Source of the DNA: Actinomycetota bacterium
Lineage (GTDB): Bacteria; Actinomycetota; Geothermincolia; Geothermincolales; RBG-13-55-18
Assembly (NCBI GenBank): GCA_030019255.1
Contig: JASEFK010000011.1
Span: 31,237-84,715 of the forward strand
DNA: 53,479 nt
Reading direction: 5' to 3'
Shown here: positions 15,191-20,745 of the stretch, one piece after another
Layout: each line of letters starts with the position of its first letter
Position numbering within the stretch: the stretch's first letter is position 1
Position numbers and translations under genes: made by a program
The notes under the pieces: generated by a model
Databases searched by the model: none
Told to the model about the DNA's origin: nothing
The model's input: only the letters and a program-made list of their open reading frames with translations

Positions 15191-16225
15191 TTGTACGCGC
15201 AGACCAGGACACCGAGGTTCAGCAGGCGGCGCAGGAAGAGCCCGGCGCCGGCCATCGTCATCGCCGTTGCCCTGCTCATTTTAGGTTGCTGGCTTTTCAA
15301 CCTCACCTGCGGAAGGGGGAAGAAGGAAGACGCCTCCTCCCTGAGCGAGTACGCCAACCGGGTGAAGGCCCTAGTGGAGGCCTCCAACGGCATCGGCGGA
15401 TCCTTCGCCTCCCTGCGGGCCTCCCTGGCGGACCTCATAGCCGACACCGAGAACCTGGGGGCAAGGCTGGAGGAGCTGGAGGGCCAGGCCCTGGACCTCC
15501 TCGGCCAGGTGAAGGCGGTGGTTCCTCCCCGGAGCCTGGAGAGCGCCCACCAGGCCCTGGTCATCTGCTTCGAACAGCGTTACCGGGCCCTCAAGAATTA
15601 CCGCCCCGACATCATCAACGCCGTATCCGCCATGGAGGTAGACGTCTACGCGGAGAGCATAAGCCAGGATCTGCGGGAGCTCGTCTATTCCGACGGGAAC
15701 TACCTTTTCTTCCGCCGCGCCCTGGAGGACTTCCTGGCGGCCAACAACCTCCAGAACCTGAGCCTTCCCGATTCCATGTGGCTTGAGGACTGGGAAAGTG
15801 CCTCCGTTAACAGGGTGCGTTCTTTCCTGCAAGCCTTGAAGGGGACCGAGGTGCACGGAGTGGCGCTGGGAAAAATAACCTTTGACCCCGCGGGAATGGT
15901 GGTGCGGGAGGGCAAGGACGACGTGCACCGGCTTCCGGCTGTGGACGAGATCAGTGTGACCGTGGTGGTGGAGAATCAGGGCAACCGCCCCGAGAGCGGA
16001 GTTACCGTGACCCTGAGCCTCTACTCCAAGGTGAACACTACTCCCGTCCGCCAGAAGAAGACCATCGAGGAGCTCGGGCCCGGGGAGAAGGCGCAACTGG
16101 TGTTCAGCGGGCTGCGGCCCACCAAGAGGGGTGTGCGCAACATCTTGGAGATCAAGGTCGATCCGGTCCCCAAGGAGACCTTTCTCGACAACAACCAGAA
16201 GTTGATATACTTCACCTTAGGATGA
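15191..16225 (+). CDS. Membrane-anchored extracellular protein with C-terminal CARDB-like domain
   Basis: The predicted start is a TTG at 15191, giving 344 residues. A basic N-terminus is followed by one membrane helix (about 20-40) and a helical, coiled-coil-like region (about 45-120). The last 100 residues resemble an Ig-like CARDB/DUF11 domain (ISVTVVVENQGN, then ELGPGEKAQLVFSGL). It is probably exposed outside the membrane. Its stop overlaps the start of the histidine kinase gene (ATGA), so the three genes 15191-18559 look like one operon. A role in supplying or modulating the kinase signal is inferred from that. An upstream alternative start cannot be excluded. Confidence 0.72.
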   Translation: MYAQTRTPRFSRRRRKSPAPAIVIAVALLILGCWLFNLTCGRGKKEDASSLSEYANRVKALVEASNGIGGSFASLRASLADLIADTENLGARLEELEGQALDLLGQVKAVVPPRSLESAHQALVICFEQRYRALKNYRPDIINAVSAMEVDVYAESISQDLRELVYSDGNYLFFRRALEDFLAANNLQNLSLPDSMWLEDWESASVNRVRSFLQALKGTEVHGVALGKITFDPAGMVVREGKDDVHRLPAVDEISVTVVVENQGNRPESGVTVTLSLYSKVNTTPVRQKKTIEELGPGEKAQLVFSGLRPTKRGVRNILEIKVDPVPKETFLDNNQKLIYFTLG

Positions 16226-17856
16226 AAGAATGGAGAATCCTGCGCGGCGAAGACCTTGCGGCCCCCCGCCACTCTCCGGCTGTGGACCTCCTCCGCGAGC
16301 ACCTGGATTCCATAAGCGAAGAGATCGTGGGCAGGGTCAGGAAGGAGGTCCCCGCCTTCGCGGACCTCCCGGAATCTTTCCTCCCCATGCTCCGGGAAGT
16401 GGGGCGCAAGGCCTGCATCACCCTCTTCAGGGGTATGGACGGTTCCCTTCCCCCGGACTGGAGCATGGAGGTGGGGGAGCTTCGCGGTTTCGAGCTGGTG
16501 GACGTGCTGCGTGCCTTCCAGGTGGGCAGCGAGGTGGTCTGGAGCTGGGCCAAGCGACTATGGGAGGCGGAGGGGTTCCCGGACCGCGAGCTGGTGGGGG
16601 TGGCGGAGACTATCTGGAACGCCTATTTCCGGGCTGCCAACTCCGTGGCCGACGAGTATCTGCGCCACCGCCAGGCCCTGGTGAGGGAGTTCAACCGTTT
16701 CCTCAACCGCCTCCGGGCGGGGCAGGACGTCGATTACCTCGTGGAGCAGATCGTGGAGGGGGCCTGCGAGGTGCTCGGCTTCCGCCGCGCCGTGTTCTTC
16801 CGCTACGAGCACGAGATGCTCGTTCCCGTGGCCGCCCGGGACCGGCGTGACCCCTCCTGGGGAGAAGGGATGTTGCGGGAGAAGAAGGCCTACCCCATCA
16901 ATCCCCTCTCAGACAGCCCCGAGGCGCAGGCCTTCTTCGCCGGGACGGTGAGGGAGGGCCGCGAGGGCGACCAGGCGAGGACGGCTTTCCTGGATCCCCT
17001 GCCGGGTTCGCGCTATTTCCTGGTCCCCGTGAACCCGCACGGCTCGTCGAAGGGGCTCCTTTACGTGGAAGCGGAGGCCGGGTTTCCGATAACCGACAGG
17101 GACCTGGAGATGCTGAACTCCTTCGCGGACACGGTGGGCCTGTCCCTGGAGAACGCCCGCCTCTACCAGGAGCTCCTCGCCCGCCGCAAGATGATGGACC
17201 ACCTCCTCTCGAGGGTGAACACCGCCCACGAGGAGGAGAGGGCCCGCATCGCCAGGGAGCTGCACGATTCGGTGGCCCAGTCCTTGCTGAAGATAATCTA
17301 CACCGCGGGTTTTGCCCTGGATTTCCTCAAGGAAGACCCGCGACTGGCGGTGGAGGAGATCGAGGAGGTCCAGCAGAGAGCCAAGGACTGCCTGCGGGAA
17401 CTGCGGGCCATAATGTCCAACCTGAGGCCCACCTCCCTGGACATCCTGGGGCTCCGGGAGACCATCCAGCGCTACGCCGAGCAGTTCGAGGAGGAGTACG
17501 CCATCACCACCACCGTGGACCTGCAGGGGCTGGAATCCCTCTCCCCCTCCGTGGAGCTGGCCGTCTTCCGCATCCTCCAGGAGGAGCTGACCAACGTCCG
17601 CAAGCACTCCAACGCCGACTCGGTGAGGATAAAGACGGAGAGAAGGGGCGACGACCTCTACCTGGTGGTGGAGGACGACGGCATCGGCTTCGACCCCCAG
17701 GCCCTGGCGGCGGAACAGGAAAGCGGCAAGCACCTGGGCCTGGTGGCCATCCGGGAGCGGGCGGAACTCCTGGGCGGGGAGATGACCATCGATTCGGAAC
17801 CAGGCCGGGGCACGCGCATTGTCGTGCGCATACCCATGATGGTGGCGGGAGAGTGA
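16222..17856 (+). CDS. NarL-type sensor histidine kinase with RsbRD-like and GAF domains
   Basis: The 544-residue kinase lacks membrane helices. Residues 20-155 look like an RsbRD-type N-terminal helical domain (ISEEIVGRVRKEVPAF, then VLRAFQVGSEVVW). Residues 160-315 fit a GAF domain. The HisKA_3 dimerisation motif is ERARIARELHDSVAQSLL with phospho-acceptor H348, followed by a HATPase domain with the N box (EELTNVRKHSNAD) and G boxes (DDGIGFD, GRGTRI). It should autophosphorylate in the cytoplasm and pass phosphate to the response regulator encoded 1 nt downstream. The ATGA overlap with the upstream anchored protein implies coupled translation. Confidence 0.92.
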   Translation: MKEWRILRGEDLAAPRHSPAVDLLREHLDSISEEIVGRVRKEVPAFADLPESFLPMLREVGRKACITLFRGMDGSLPPDWSMEVGELRGFELVDVLRAFQVGSEVVWSWAKRLWEAEGFPDRELVGVAETIWNAYFRAANSVADEYLRHRQALVREFNRFLNRLRAGQDVDYLVEQIVEGACEVLGFRRAVFFRYEHEMLVPVAARDRRDPSWGEGMLREKKAYPINPLSDSPEAQAFFAGTVREGREGDQARTAFLDPLPGSRYFLVPVNPHGSSKGLLYVEAEAGFPITDRDLEMLNSFADTVGLSLENARLYQELLARRKMMDHLLSRVNTAHEEERARIARELHDSVAQSLLKIIYTAGFALDFLKEDPRLAVEEIEEVQQRAKDCLRELRAIMSNLRPTSLDILGLRETIQRYAEQFEEEYAITTTVDLQGLESLSPSVELAVFRILQEELTNVRKHSNADSVRIKTERRGDDLYLVVEDDGIGFDPQALAAEQESGKHLGLVAIRERAELLGGEMTIDSEPGRGTRIVVRIPMMVAGE

Positions 17857-17857
17857 G

Positions 17858-18559
17858 ATGGCCGGCAGGGGCGAATCGGTGAACGTCATGCTGGTGGACG
17901 ACCACGAGGTGGTCCTGGAAGGCCTCATCCGCATCCTGGAGAAGCAGGGCGGGATAAAGATAGTCAGCGTGGCCCGCAGCGCGGAGGAGGCCCTGGAAAA
18001 AATAGGCAGGTTCCCACCCGACGTGGTCATCGTGGACATCCAGCTCCCGGGCATGAACGGCATAGAGCTCATCAGGCGCATCAAGTCCCAGTACCCCGAC
18101 ATCGAGGCCATCACCCTCACCGTCTTCGACGACGAGCAGTTCGCCAAGCAGGCCATCAAGGCGGGGGCCATCGGCTACGTTATAAAGGACGCCGCCAAGG
18201 AGGAGCTGGTCAAGGCGGTACGGGCGGCGGCCAAGGGGGAGTCGCTGATCTCCACCTCCGTGGCCCGCAAGCTCATCGAGGAAATCAGCGAGCCCGCCGG
18301 GAAGAAGAAAAAGGAGGAGGAGTACGAGGGGCTCTCCCAGCGTGAGCTGGACGTCATCAAGCTCATGGCCCGCGGTTACAACAACCGGCAGATAGCCGAC
18401 ATCCTCTTCATCAGCGAGCATACGGTCAAGGTGCACATCCGCAACATATTCCGCAAGATCGGGGTGACGGACCGCACCAACGCTGTGCTCTGGGCCATCG
18501 AGAGGGGGCTGGTCCTCAAGGCCAGGGAGACCGTCAGGCCGGACAAACCTCCCGTTTGA
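17858..18559 (+). CDS. NarL/FixJ-family response regulator
   Basis: The 233-residue regulator has an N-terminal receiver domain with the acidic pair D14-D15, phospho-acceptor D60 (VIVDIQLPGMNG) and the conserved lysine in YVIKDA. After an acidic/lysine linker comes a LuxR-type helix-turn-helix (LSQRELDVIKLMARGYNNRQIADIL, shortened here to its key part ELDVIKLMARGYNNRQIA). It is the partner of the kinase immediately upstream. Targets are unknown. The gene converges on the zinc-ribbon family gene at 18790. Confidence 0.95.
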   Translation: MAGRGESVNVMLVDDHEVVLEGLIRILEKQGGIKIVSVARSAEEALEKIGRFPPDVVIVDIQLPGMNGIELIRRIKSQYPDIEAITLTVFDDEQFAKQAIKAGAIGYVIKDAAKEELVKAVRAAAKGESLISTSVARKLIEEISEPAGKKKKEEEYEGLSQRELDVIKLMARGYNNRQIADILFISEHTVKVHIRNIFRKIGVTDRTNAVLWAIERGLVLKARETVRPDKPPV

Positions 18560-18789: not shown

Positions 18790-19929
18790 TCAGAAGGGCA
18801 GGATGACCCGCAGGGAGGCGGGGAGGTCCGCCGGGACGGCCAGGCTGGAGACGGGCAGGAAGGTCCCCTCGAGCCGGGGTCCTACCAGGTAGTTCCAGGT
18901 GGAATCCCCCCGGTTCCGGTATTCCACCTCCGGGACCTCCCTTTCCAGGGCTTGGAAGACGCCCCCCAGCTTCCAGGACAGGAGCTGCGGGAAGGGCACC
19001 CCCTCGATGAGGGCGTCGATGAGGAACGGCTTGCGGGTCACCCTCCTGGGCTTTCCCCATCCCAGGACGGGAAGGCCCATGAAGAAGTTGCGGTAGGCGG
19101 TCTTGTAGTTGCCCCCGGAGGGCGAGGCGTGGACCGCGGCGGTCCTGGCGGTCACGGCGTCCGCCAGGGAGGAAGGGAGCTCCTCCCGGCGGGACCCGTT
19201 TATCTCCTGCAGGATCTCCCGCCATCCCCGCACCGAGGTTATCACCAGGCGCCGGTGGTCGGCCGGGAGGTATATGGTGCCCAGGTCGGGATCCCACCTC
19301 ATCTCCACGGGGAAGGCGGGCAGCCGGCAACGCTCGCAGACCTCCAGTTCGTAGTCGCGCTTGGGACGCCTGGGATGGGGTTCTCCCCCGGGCGGCCAGC
19401 GACGCCTGCCCACGGTTTTCACCGTGACCTCGTATTCCACCTCCGAGACGGTGGCCAATGAGGCCAGGGCCTCCACCCCGAAGAGGCCCTCCCAGAACCC
19501 CCAAAGGTCCCCGGCCATGAGATGGGGGTGATAGGGGTGCCGCACTTTTACCTTCATCTCCCGCCCCGGCTTCAGCTCGGAGAGGGAGAGGTTGCCGCTC
19601 CCGTAGAAGGCCGCCTCCCGGAAGGCCTCGCGGATCACCCTCCCGGCCAGCGGGCGGCGTCCCAGCAGCCGGCGGCGCACCCCGCCCAACTGAAGGACCA
19701 CCTCCCCGCGGGTGAATGCGCGGCGCTTCTCGCGGAGGGTCTTGAGCAGCTCCTCGCCGCGGAGCTTCACCCCCTCCGCGACGATGAGGGATACATCCTC
19801 GTGTTCCAGGAAGATGAGCCGGTCCGAACGCTTGTCCCGGAAATATATCCCGCCGTCCTCGGTCCAGACCAGTTTCCGGCCGAGTGACAGGGGAAGCCCG
19901 CAAGAGGGACAGCGATCGGTATCGCCCAT
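18790..19929 (-). CDS. Zinc-ribbon protein of the same unnamed family as 13196-14263
   Basis: The start is the ATG at 19929 after GGAGGT, giving 379 residues. The N-terminus has CPSCG and, in the middle, CERCRLPAF, with the same surrounding pattern as the gene at 13196: a GGIYF/GTIY strand, then R-L-I-F/V-I, then an acidic helix. The domain between them carries GSGNLSLSEL and LMAGDLWGFWEGLFGVEAL, matching GNIELANLR and FCGDLAGSFNAI in the paralogue. Sequence identity is low but the order of elements is the same. Function is unknown. It is transcribed alone, convergent with the response regulator. Confidence 0.68.
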   Translation of the reverse strand: MGDTDRCPSCGLPLSLGRKLVWTEDGGIYFRDKRSDRLIFLEHEDVSLIVAEGVKLRGEELLKTLREKRRAFTRGEVVLQLGGVRRRLLGRRPLAGRVIREAFREAAFYGSGNLSLSELKPGREMKVKVRHPYHPHLMAGDLWGFWEGLFGVEALASLATVSEVEYEVTVKTVGRRRWPPGGEPHPRRPKRDYELEVCERCRLPAFPVEMRWDPDLGTIYLPADHRRLVITSVRGWREILQEINGSRREELPSSLADAVTARTAAVHASPSGGNYKTAYRNFFMGLPVLGWGKPRRVTRKPFLIDALIEGVPFPQLLSWKLGGVFQALEREVPEVEYRNRGDSTWNYLVGPRLEGTFLPVSSLAVPADLPASLRVILPF

Positions 19930-20009
19930 CTCCCACCTCCTTGCCAAAAGGTTACTCGAGGAGGATGTGGGGCGCAACCGTGGAGACGGCGGTCAGGGCC
20001 GGGGTAAGC

Positions 20010-20049
20010 TTGAAAAACGGAAAAGGCCCCGCAGGGGGAACGGGGCCTT
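20010..20049 (-). terminator. Intrinsic terminator on the minus strand with no coding gene before it
   Basis: AAGGCCCCG (20023-20031) and CGGGGCCTT (20041-20049) form a perfect 9-bp stem. Read on the minus strand it is followed by TTTT, CCG and TTTTT. It lies upstream of the gene at 18790-19929 on the same strand, so it must end a transcript coming from 20050-20480. Confidence 0.7.
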
Positions 20050-20410
20050 CCGCTGATGCGGACTCCATTGGGGATTCAGGGGATACCTCAGGGATGATCG
20101 GCTGAGCTGCGATTGTGCTGCGATCGTTGCTGCGTACCTTGCTGCGACTGGGCTGCTTCGGTGCTCCGATCTTTGCGTCATGGGCGAGGGTTTCAAGTAG
20201 TCCGTCTGGGCTGCATTCGATGTAATGGGGTAGATGGCTGTCTCGGCTAGTCGGCTTCGGATGGTGCTAGGGGAATGCTACTGCGTTTTTAAGGGGGCTG
20301 CGACTGTAGCATGATCCGCTCGCCCATGACGTTCAAGCTTCTACTCTGGCACTATATCCCCGGGGTCCGCTTGGGGCCTTTTTCAAGGTTCTTTTATCGA
20401 TTAACAACAT
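20050..20410 (-). ncRNA. Candidate structured non-coding RNA
   Basis: No protein-like frame is present. The interval has long-range pairing: CGTCATGGGCGAG (20176-20188) is perfectly complementary to CTCGCCCATGACG (20319-20331). A nested hairpin pairs ATGCTAC (20275-20281) with GTAGCAT (20306-20312). GCTGCG recurs at 20106, 20117, 20129 and 20141 (11-12 nt steps). The minus strand ends in the terminator at 20010-20049, and the 20400-20480 side is AT-rich, as expected for a promoter. A plus-strand terminator at 20364-20383 leaves the strand open to question. I found no tmRNA, RNase P or SRP RNA signature. Confidence 0.35.
20364..20383 (+). terminator. Plus-strand intrinsic terminator-like hairpin
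   Basis: GGTCC (20364-20368) and GGGCC (20374-20378) form a 5-bp stem with one G-T pair and a 5-nt loop, followed by five T residues. It bounds the right side of the structured, gene-free interval. Confidence 0.45.
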
Positions 20411-20745
20411 ACGAAAGACCCGGAAGAAAGACCATTCCACGAAGGTATTAATTTAAAAGGGCCGAAAATAATACCCCAGTATTAGTTAATGGTGGGAACG
20501 GAAGAGGTCGTAAAGGTGAAAATGTGGTCCCGTGGGGACCGCAGGAACCCGCATGCAGGCGGTAGAACGCGGCGGCCATTCTGGTACCATAGAGGGTACG
20601 AACAAGCCAGGGAAGGGAGGTTGATGCGGATCCTCCCGGGAAAGGACCTCGGAGGGTTCCGGCCGGGAGCCCGCCGGACAAGCGGACCGCGTTCTCGAGA
20701 TGACCATGACGGGGGGCGGCGCCCCGGGAAGCGCCGCCGAGCGAG

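Follow-up and report, generated by a model that had tools for sequence, protein, structure and literature searches.

A probable stand-alone non-coding RNA with a GCAGC array, conserved in the order Candidatus Geothermincolales

The window, the whole stretch of 53,479 nucleotides analysed here, belongs to a genome (G000) of the Actinomycetota, and carries between two genes a locus that the initial annotation delimited at 20010-20410 and described as a likely new structured RNA. Neither strand of the locus has a frame of conserved length, in agreement with the absence of a coding frame noticed at that time. The gene order is the same in the 15 loci of the family: a gene for a zincin-like metallopeptidase on the opposite strand, the RNA, and gene A on the same strand as the RNA, followed, where the flank reaches beyond gene A, by genes for a response regulator and a histidine kinase. 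Gene A (18790-19977 in the window, minus strand) showed no Pfam match. The zincin gene and gene A are retained in G015, the genome with the most diverged copy. In the sister family, at both loci, other genes on the same strand lie downstream of the RNA, which by inspection encode an alpha/beta-hydrolase-like protein and a small membrane protein, and the zincin gene is found on contigs other than that of the RNA. Given this different neighbourhood the RNA appears to stand alone; gene A is not an obligate partner, and a role of the RNA as a cis-acting leader is disfavoured by the different downstream genes. The features of the locus, together with two other RNAs discussed below, are collected in Table 1.

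Table 1. Features of the RNA locus (window positions) and of two other RNAs
Feature	Position	Strand	Basis or remark
Distal operator palindrome TAATACTGGGGTATTA (minus sense), 16 bp	20469..20484	.	Pattern TAMTACYNNRGTRKTA here and at orthologues
Proximal box AATTAATACC-N4-TGGAATGG, conserved and probably the second half of the operator	20430..20453	-	Conservation 0.80 at 20449-20430; 18 upstream regions compared
-10-like TATGTT, putative RNA start near 20399	20406..20411	-	14 of 18 regions show TATNNT, judged by eye; weak
Non-coding RNA, about 385 nt	20015..20399	-	Conserved block; both ends putative
P1, 5' strand GCGGAC, pairs with 20058-20063	20365..20370	-	Six pairs constant in 17 of 17 copies
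S1 stem, 5' arm	20319..20332	-	Outermost of 14 pairs formed in only 5 of 18 copies
Core GCATTCCCC..CTACCCC, inside the S1 loop	20227..20278	-	20269-20230 (40 nt) identical in 15 of 15 family members
S1 stem, 3' arm	20175..20188	-	Pairs with 20319-20332
Fast-evolving array, GCAGC at 11-12 nt steps, between S1 and P1	20090..20174	-	Periodicity in 15 family members
P1, 3' strand GTCCGC	20058..20063	-	Same six-pair comparison
Intrinsic terminator GGAAGGCCCCG..CGGGGCCTTTTCC with T-rich tail	20015..20051	-	Hairpin 20051-20021
Second RNA	L102 1501-1690 = G000:C2:250461-250650; also L095-L112		GGAAGG repeats
6S RNA	G000:C1:155950-156128; L091-L094		RF00013 match

The limits of the locus were examined by column conservation among the 15 members of the same family. 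Outside the block the values are 0.20-0.52; they rise at 20489 and fall to 0.41 at 20009, so that conservation extends from 20489 to about 20015, that is, from a 16-bp palindrome to the U-tract past the minus-strand terminator, and reaches further than the interval originally delimited. Inside the block conservation is uneven, with 0.57 at 20469-20450, 0.49-0.63 at 20429-20390 and 0.63 at 20169-20150.

Relatives of the RNA are present in all 18 genomes examined from the order Candidatus Geothermincolales when BLAST and covariance model results are combined. A central query (20090-20345) gave BLAST matches in 17 of them, and the whole interval in 18 of 59 relatives, where G016 and G017 are matched in the core alone and G015 only at the 3' end of the RNA. 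A covariance model comprising S1 and its loop was built from 17 copies with G015 held out, and it recovered the diverged G015 copy with 25.1 bits and an E-value, to be taken as rough, of 0.00066 in 125,662 bases. Across the phylum this model matched 17 of 396 genomes, every one within the order, and none of the 378 sampled genomes outside it; weak members outside the order may go unnoticed, since G015 itself is missed with the stricter filters that apply to more than 40 genomes. A scan for a 33-base core over 84,980 species, one genome per species, found 14 loci, all of them in Actinomycetota or actinobacteria records or in the genera Candidatus Solincola (four loci) and Candidatus Geothermincola (two), which NCBI taxonomy places in the class Candidatus Geothermincolia, order Candidatus Geothermincolales. 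Around the zincin loci of 12 genomes from other families of the class (flanks of up to 1500 nt) the covariance model found no match, and lone motif matches were seen at two of these loci. A phage or plasmid origin was also considered and discarded: no viral contig carried the 33-base core pattern, and phages and plasmids gave no match. One genome has an additional core-like stretch (L019 1499-1568, G002:C72), 91% alike over 34 nt, whose model match is limited to positions 74-151 and scores 24.6 bits, close to the G015 copy; perhaps it is a paralogue, a remnant or part of a foreign contig.

No known family accounts for the locus. With Rfam 15 only a tRNA exceeded the gathering threshold in the whole window and no family matched at the RNA, in line with the view that SRP RNA hallmarks are missing and with the proposed check against known families. 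In a relaxed scan the best results were Esr41 at 20465-20540 (22.3 bits, threshold 102, E 0.1) and, at the terminator, F6 (18.9 bits, threshold 46), and the best for copy L018 had an E-value of 0.21; the three were taken as chance. The hallmarks of tmRNA and RNase P RNA had likewise been reported as missing, and both RNAs lie elsewhere in the genome, as an RF00023 match over threshold at G000:C2:282515-282865 and an RF00010 match of 305 bits at G000:C20:261-643; both identities were rejected for the locus. The 23S rRNA match of this genome (G000:C7:82648-86408) spans 3761 nt against a model of 2925 positions, and includes an open reading frame on the minus strand (L118 2188-2703) with LAGFADGEGSF near its start, presumably a LAGLIDADG homing endonuclease and perhaps part of an intron. 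A 6S RNA identity does not fit either, given that RF00013 has no match at the locus and exceeds its cut-off elsewhere in 15 of the 18 genomes (68-82 bits in the four that were re-scanned). Most genomes of this actinobacterial order therefore have a 6S RNA, although PMC9130861 describes 6S RNAs as widespread except in Actinobacteria. Actinobacterial Ms1 was found through synteny with genes for a HAD hydrolase and an oxidoreductase (PMC9130861); here the flanks are the zincin-like metallopeptidase, gene A, the response regulator and the kinase, and Ms1 synteny is absent. Among the literature matches listed, no title or abstract opening concerned this RNA, and no small-RNA study of the lineage was found in titles or abstract openings.

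The architecture of the RNA is delimited by two stems and a terminator. Stem S1 had been noticed as a 13-bp pairing, which proved exact between CGTCATGGGCGAG at 20176-20188 and its reverse complement at 20319-20331. Among 1000 dinucleotide shuffles of the 411 bases, none held a perfect inverted repeat of at least 13 bp, and four held one of at least 12 bp. Over the 18 copies 93.2% of the S1 cells are paired, and the suggestion to look for covariation among homologues was borne out, given that both sides have changed in four of the 14 pairs, each double change resting on a single sequence (shuffles have a mean of 0.2 and none of 500 reaches four; slid versions of the stem give 0-1). These counts come from a model-fitted alignment, which leans towards the structure and was used because MAFFT misplaces S1 in G015. 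The S1 loop measures 130-141 nt in 17 copies and 115 nt in G015. The six pairs of P1, the stem that would join both ends of the RNA, never vary, and for this reason P1 provides no covariation evidence. The hairpin of 7 bp (ATGCTAC/GTAGCAT) proposed to nest inside S1 occurs in one of 17 aligned copies, the window's own, and was abandoned. The strong terminator on the minus strand is indeed present, and an equivalent hairpin exists in the 18 copies with -21.2 to -27.5 kcal/mol, formed by other stem sequences in L016, L017 and L018; it had been considered an orphan, and would instead end the minus-strand RNA. Over both strands three terminator-like sites were found and 1.1 were expected. The terminator reported to face right is retained as a hairpin in 17 of the 18 copies, but is weak (-7.3 to -10.9 kcal/mol in the 15 family members, -7.3 in L018, -7.0 in L017 and -1.1 in G015), and in a minus-strand reading it corresponds to the 5' strand of P1 with its neighbours.

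Several features indicate that the minus strand is likely the transcribed one. The sixth S1 pair is G-U in 14 of the 18 copies, A-U in three and G-C in one, and those 14 copies, read as plus strand, would have C-A. The strong terminator is in all the copies, the operator described below is upstream at a nearly fixed distance, and the conserved block beyond the RNA lies on its upstream side. Folding energy taken alone favours the plus strand (z of -3.84 against -2.68 for the minus strand, consensus energy of -75.7 against -57.2); this reading was rejected since it does worse on the S1 pair, on the terminator and on where the conserved upstream block lies.

Between the stems, most of the RNA is, as far as folding predicts, conserved or repetitive sequence with little pairing and not a compact fold. 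In both copies of the sister family the core, inside the S1 loop, retains 88-89% identity across 54-57 nt; in G015 it is mostly lost. The array that follows S1 evolves fast; the GCTGCG repeats at 11-12 nt steps pointed out before (CGCAGC on the minus strand) were recovered as an AGC-AGC periodicity in the 15 family members, in which there are 42 distances of 11-12 nt, 21 of 23 nt and 19 of 35 nt, where random placement would give 9.1, 4.1 and 3.3. The 11-12 nt phase stays while the bases of the spacers drift. The whole RNA carries four to eight GCAGC motifs in each of the 18 copies, compared with dinucleotide shuffle means of 0.5-1.8; every copy reaches the highest value among 200 shuffles, seven of them without exceeding it, and GCTGC is absent from all of them in the RNA sense. 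AGC is present 12-20 times per RNA, versus shuffle means of 5.2-8.9, and falls below the maximum of 300 shuffles in four of 18 copies, so its enrichment is less clear-cut than that of GCAGC; in both counts L017 was entered at 282 nt, not 262, and the counts are not independent because the copies are related.

Upstream of the RNA, in the minus sense, the order is the palindrome TAATACTGGGGTATTA, the box AATTAATACC..TGGAATGG, the -10-like TATGTT, the RNA, and the terminator with its T-rich tail. A consensus promoter scan of the locus found no promoter, and the stretch of the -10-like box is poorly conserved (0.49-0.63 in the 15 same-family members); transcription of the minus-strand RNA and its start are putative. 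The palindrome precedes GCGGAC by 94-106 nt wherever this could be measured, which was in 16 of 18 copies, four of them with looser patterns. A scan of the 18 genomes for the pattern TAMTACYNNRGTRKTA gave 30 places, spread over 16 of them: 14 upstream of the GCAGC-array RNA, 14 in the promoter region of a second RNA (in 12 genomes, two of which have two sites) and two elsewhere (L058 1753-1768, G004:C44; and G005:C48:10836-10851). A reversed control pattern had matches in two genomes, and a stricter pattern gave 20 places, distributed as 13, six and one in the same order. Given that 28 of the 30 places are at the two RNA genes, a regulator dedicated to these RNAs is suggested. In the window, the LuxR-type response regulator (17858-18559, plus strand) is a candidate for this role; it lies beyond gene A beside a GAF/HisKA_3 histidine kinase (16222-17856, plus strand).

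Taken together, order-wide conservation, the covariation of S1, promoter-like and terminator boundaries and the lack of an Rfam family sustain the idea of a new RNA, and we consider it very likely that the minus-strand locus is a real non-coding RNA gene; of the details of that idea, the nested hairpin did not stand and the right-facing terminator is weak.

The second intergenic RNA, of about 125 nt, is matched in the 18 genomes at an E-value of 0.01 or lower, weakly in G004, G005 and G009, and comes after recO in G000, by inspection. It shows GGAAGG motifs at steps of mostly 12-14 nt and a closing stem TGACCCCAAG/CTTGGGGTCA, and an Rfam scan gave no match. TTGACN, 17-18 bases and a -10-like hexamer precede it in 15 of 17 upstream regions; in the other two no promoter was found (G005) or another sequence is present (G004). 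At most of these promoters the operator lies within the spacer between the -35 and -10 elements, which suggests repression there, whereas its position upstream of the -10 element at the GCAGC-array RNA suggests activation; the two RNAs may thus be under opposite control.

In general outline CsrB/CsrC and RsmX/Y/Z are similar to this RNA: stand-alone intergenic genes, a short motif repeated in tandem in unpaired segments, a terminator and a regulated promoter, and two repeat-array RNAs with a common operator recall the CsrB/CsrC pair. CsrB and RsmZ titrate CsrA/RsmE. The motif differs, being GCAGC at 11-12 nt here and GGA in the CsrB/Rsm RNAs; the 18 copies together have 104 GGA, where mononucleotide shuffles lead to an expectation of 96.2. 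CsrA was found in seven of the 18 genomes of the order, and in five of the 12 most complete, in comparison with relatives of the RNA in all 18. CsrA as the partner is disfavoured by this distribution and by the lack of a GGA excess, and the RNA, which would work like a sponge or scaffold, does not belong to the Csr/Rsm family. CsrA is encoded in the genome of the window itself (G000:C17:21078-21233, L122), and the distribution of this protein perhaps follows that of flagella, which is a guess. OLE, GOLLD and ROOL are large stand-alone RNAs with their own terminator and long conserved stretches, and had no known function when they were found; by comparison, the RNA described here is shorter, has little compact structure and matches no Rfam family.

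An unpaired motif in steady phase, drifting spacers, a nearly invariant core and closing stems seem most simply interpreted as a platform to which a repeated protein partner binds. We tentatively propose that the minus strand from 20399 to 20015 encodes a stand-alone RNA kept throughout Candidatus Geothermincolales and controlled by a transcription factor that would recognise the upstream TAMTACYNNRGTRKTA. The RNA would be held by the end-to-end stem P1 and the internal S1 of 13-14 bp, would end in the strong terminator, and in its long, largely unpaired stretches might display 12-20 AGC sites (four to eight of them GCAGC) and the nearly invariant core. Several protomers of one protein may dock on the unpaired sites, and making the RNA would titrate or scaffold that protein, as CsrB/RsmZ do with CsrA/RsmE, with a different motif and a different partner. 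As a whole, a multi-site platform or sponge under the control of a transcription factor is the reading that we prefer, as a possibility of which we are far from sure, with binding and titration argued from motif phase and analogy. An extension of it, in which one transcription factor activates the GCAGC-array RNA and represses the GGAAGG-array RNA, and the two RNAs titrate two RNA-binding factors, or two states of one, as a CsrA-independent actinobacterial Csr-like switch, strikes us as rather speculative.

The strongest rival is that of a trans-acting antisense RNA, in which the invariant C-rich core (CAUUCCCC, CAUCUACCCC) would pair with several mRNAs and the arrays and stems would serve only to present it. 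The complements of both segments resemble a ribosome-binding site beside AUG, the sequence itself has C-rich segments with CAU, and conservation is extreme where little pairing is predicted. Nonetheless, the core is mostly gone in G015, and the window's core reaches no complementarity score beyond those of 30 or 100 shuffles with a stretch of G000 rRNA, E. coli rRNA, tmRNA, RNase P RNA, 6S RNA or the second RNA. For the pair of repeat-array RNAs, duplex energy showed no excess either in 15 genomes (z of -1.2 to 2.2, by unrestricted folding with 60 shuffles each, which a short seed could escape; G005, G009 and G015 excluded), and we judge the antisense reading unlikely. An RNA that acts as the 5' leader of gene A, as a riboswitch or an attenuator whose terminator decides read-through, would explain the same-strand position of gene A downstream in the 15 family loci and in G015, and same-strand genes, though other ones, follow in the sister family too. 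Like terminator attenuators and riboswitches, the locus has a conserved RNA, a terminator and a same-strand gene downstream, and in the window AAAAGGCCCC near the 5' end of the RNA can pair with GGGGCCTTTT of the terminator. Unlike them, no constant gene or pathway follows across families, as seen in the sister family, in which the zincin gene is also on other contigs; moreover, within the family the core lies anywhere between 278 and 696 nt from gene A, the alternative pairing was not seen by inspection in L016, L017 and L018, and conservation ends past the T-rich tail, which make a leader improbable.

A 6S/Ms1-like RNA that binds RNA polymerase would have the same layout of closing stem, large internal loop, stem and large apical loop, and the size is close to that of Ms1. 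Ms1 is present in phylum-mates (PMC9130861). However, 6S RNA is encoded elsewhere in most of the genomes, the neighbours are other than those used to find Ms1, and the loops are long and repetitive, so that we hold little expectation for this reading. The least probable explanation, and a remote one, is an element on the plus strand, which would be an RNA or encode a short peptide (MAVSASRLRMVLGEC...). Starting at an ATG in the core, 15 codons stay open in 17 of 17 copies, three of the six changes between families are at first and three at third codon positions with none at the second, the plus strand folds better, and the weak right-facing hairpin is retained. Against it, the frame as a whole can be as short as 15 or as long as 87 codons, third positions show no more change than the others among the 15 family members, L019 has CTG in place of ATG, the upstream side of such a transcript carries no conserved block, and S1 would contain a C-A pair in the copies indicated above.

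The platform or sponge reading, if the arrays do hold a protein, implies an RNA-binding protein with a footprint of 11-12 nt and a preference for AGC or GCAGC, in an order with CsrA in only seven of 18 genomes and a phylum in which Hfq is not known to be common. The shared operator at the two RNA genes provides a testable circuit, and the findings bring a new RNA class, plus a second one, for an uncultured bacterial lineage.
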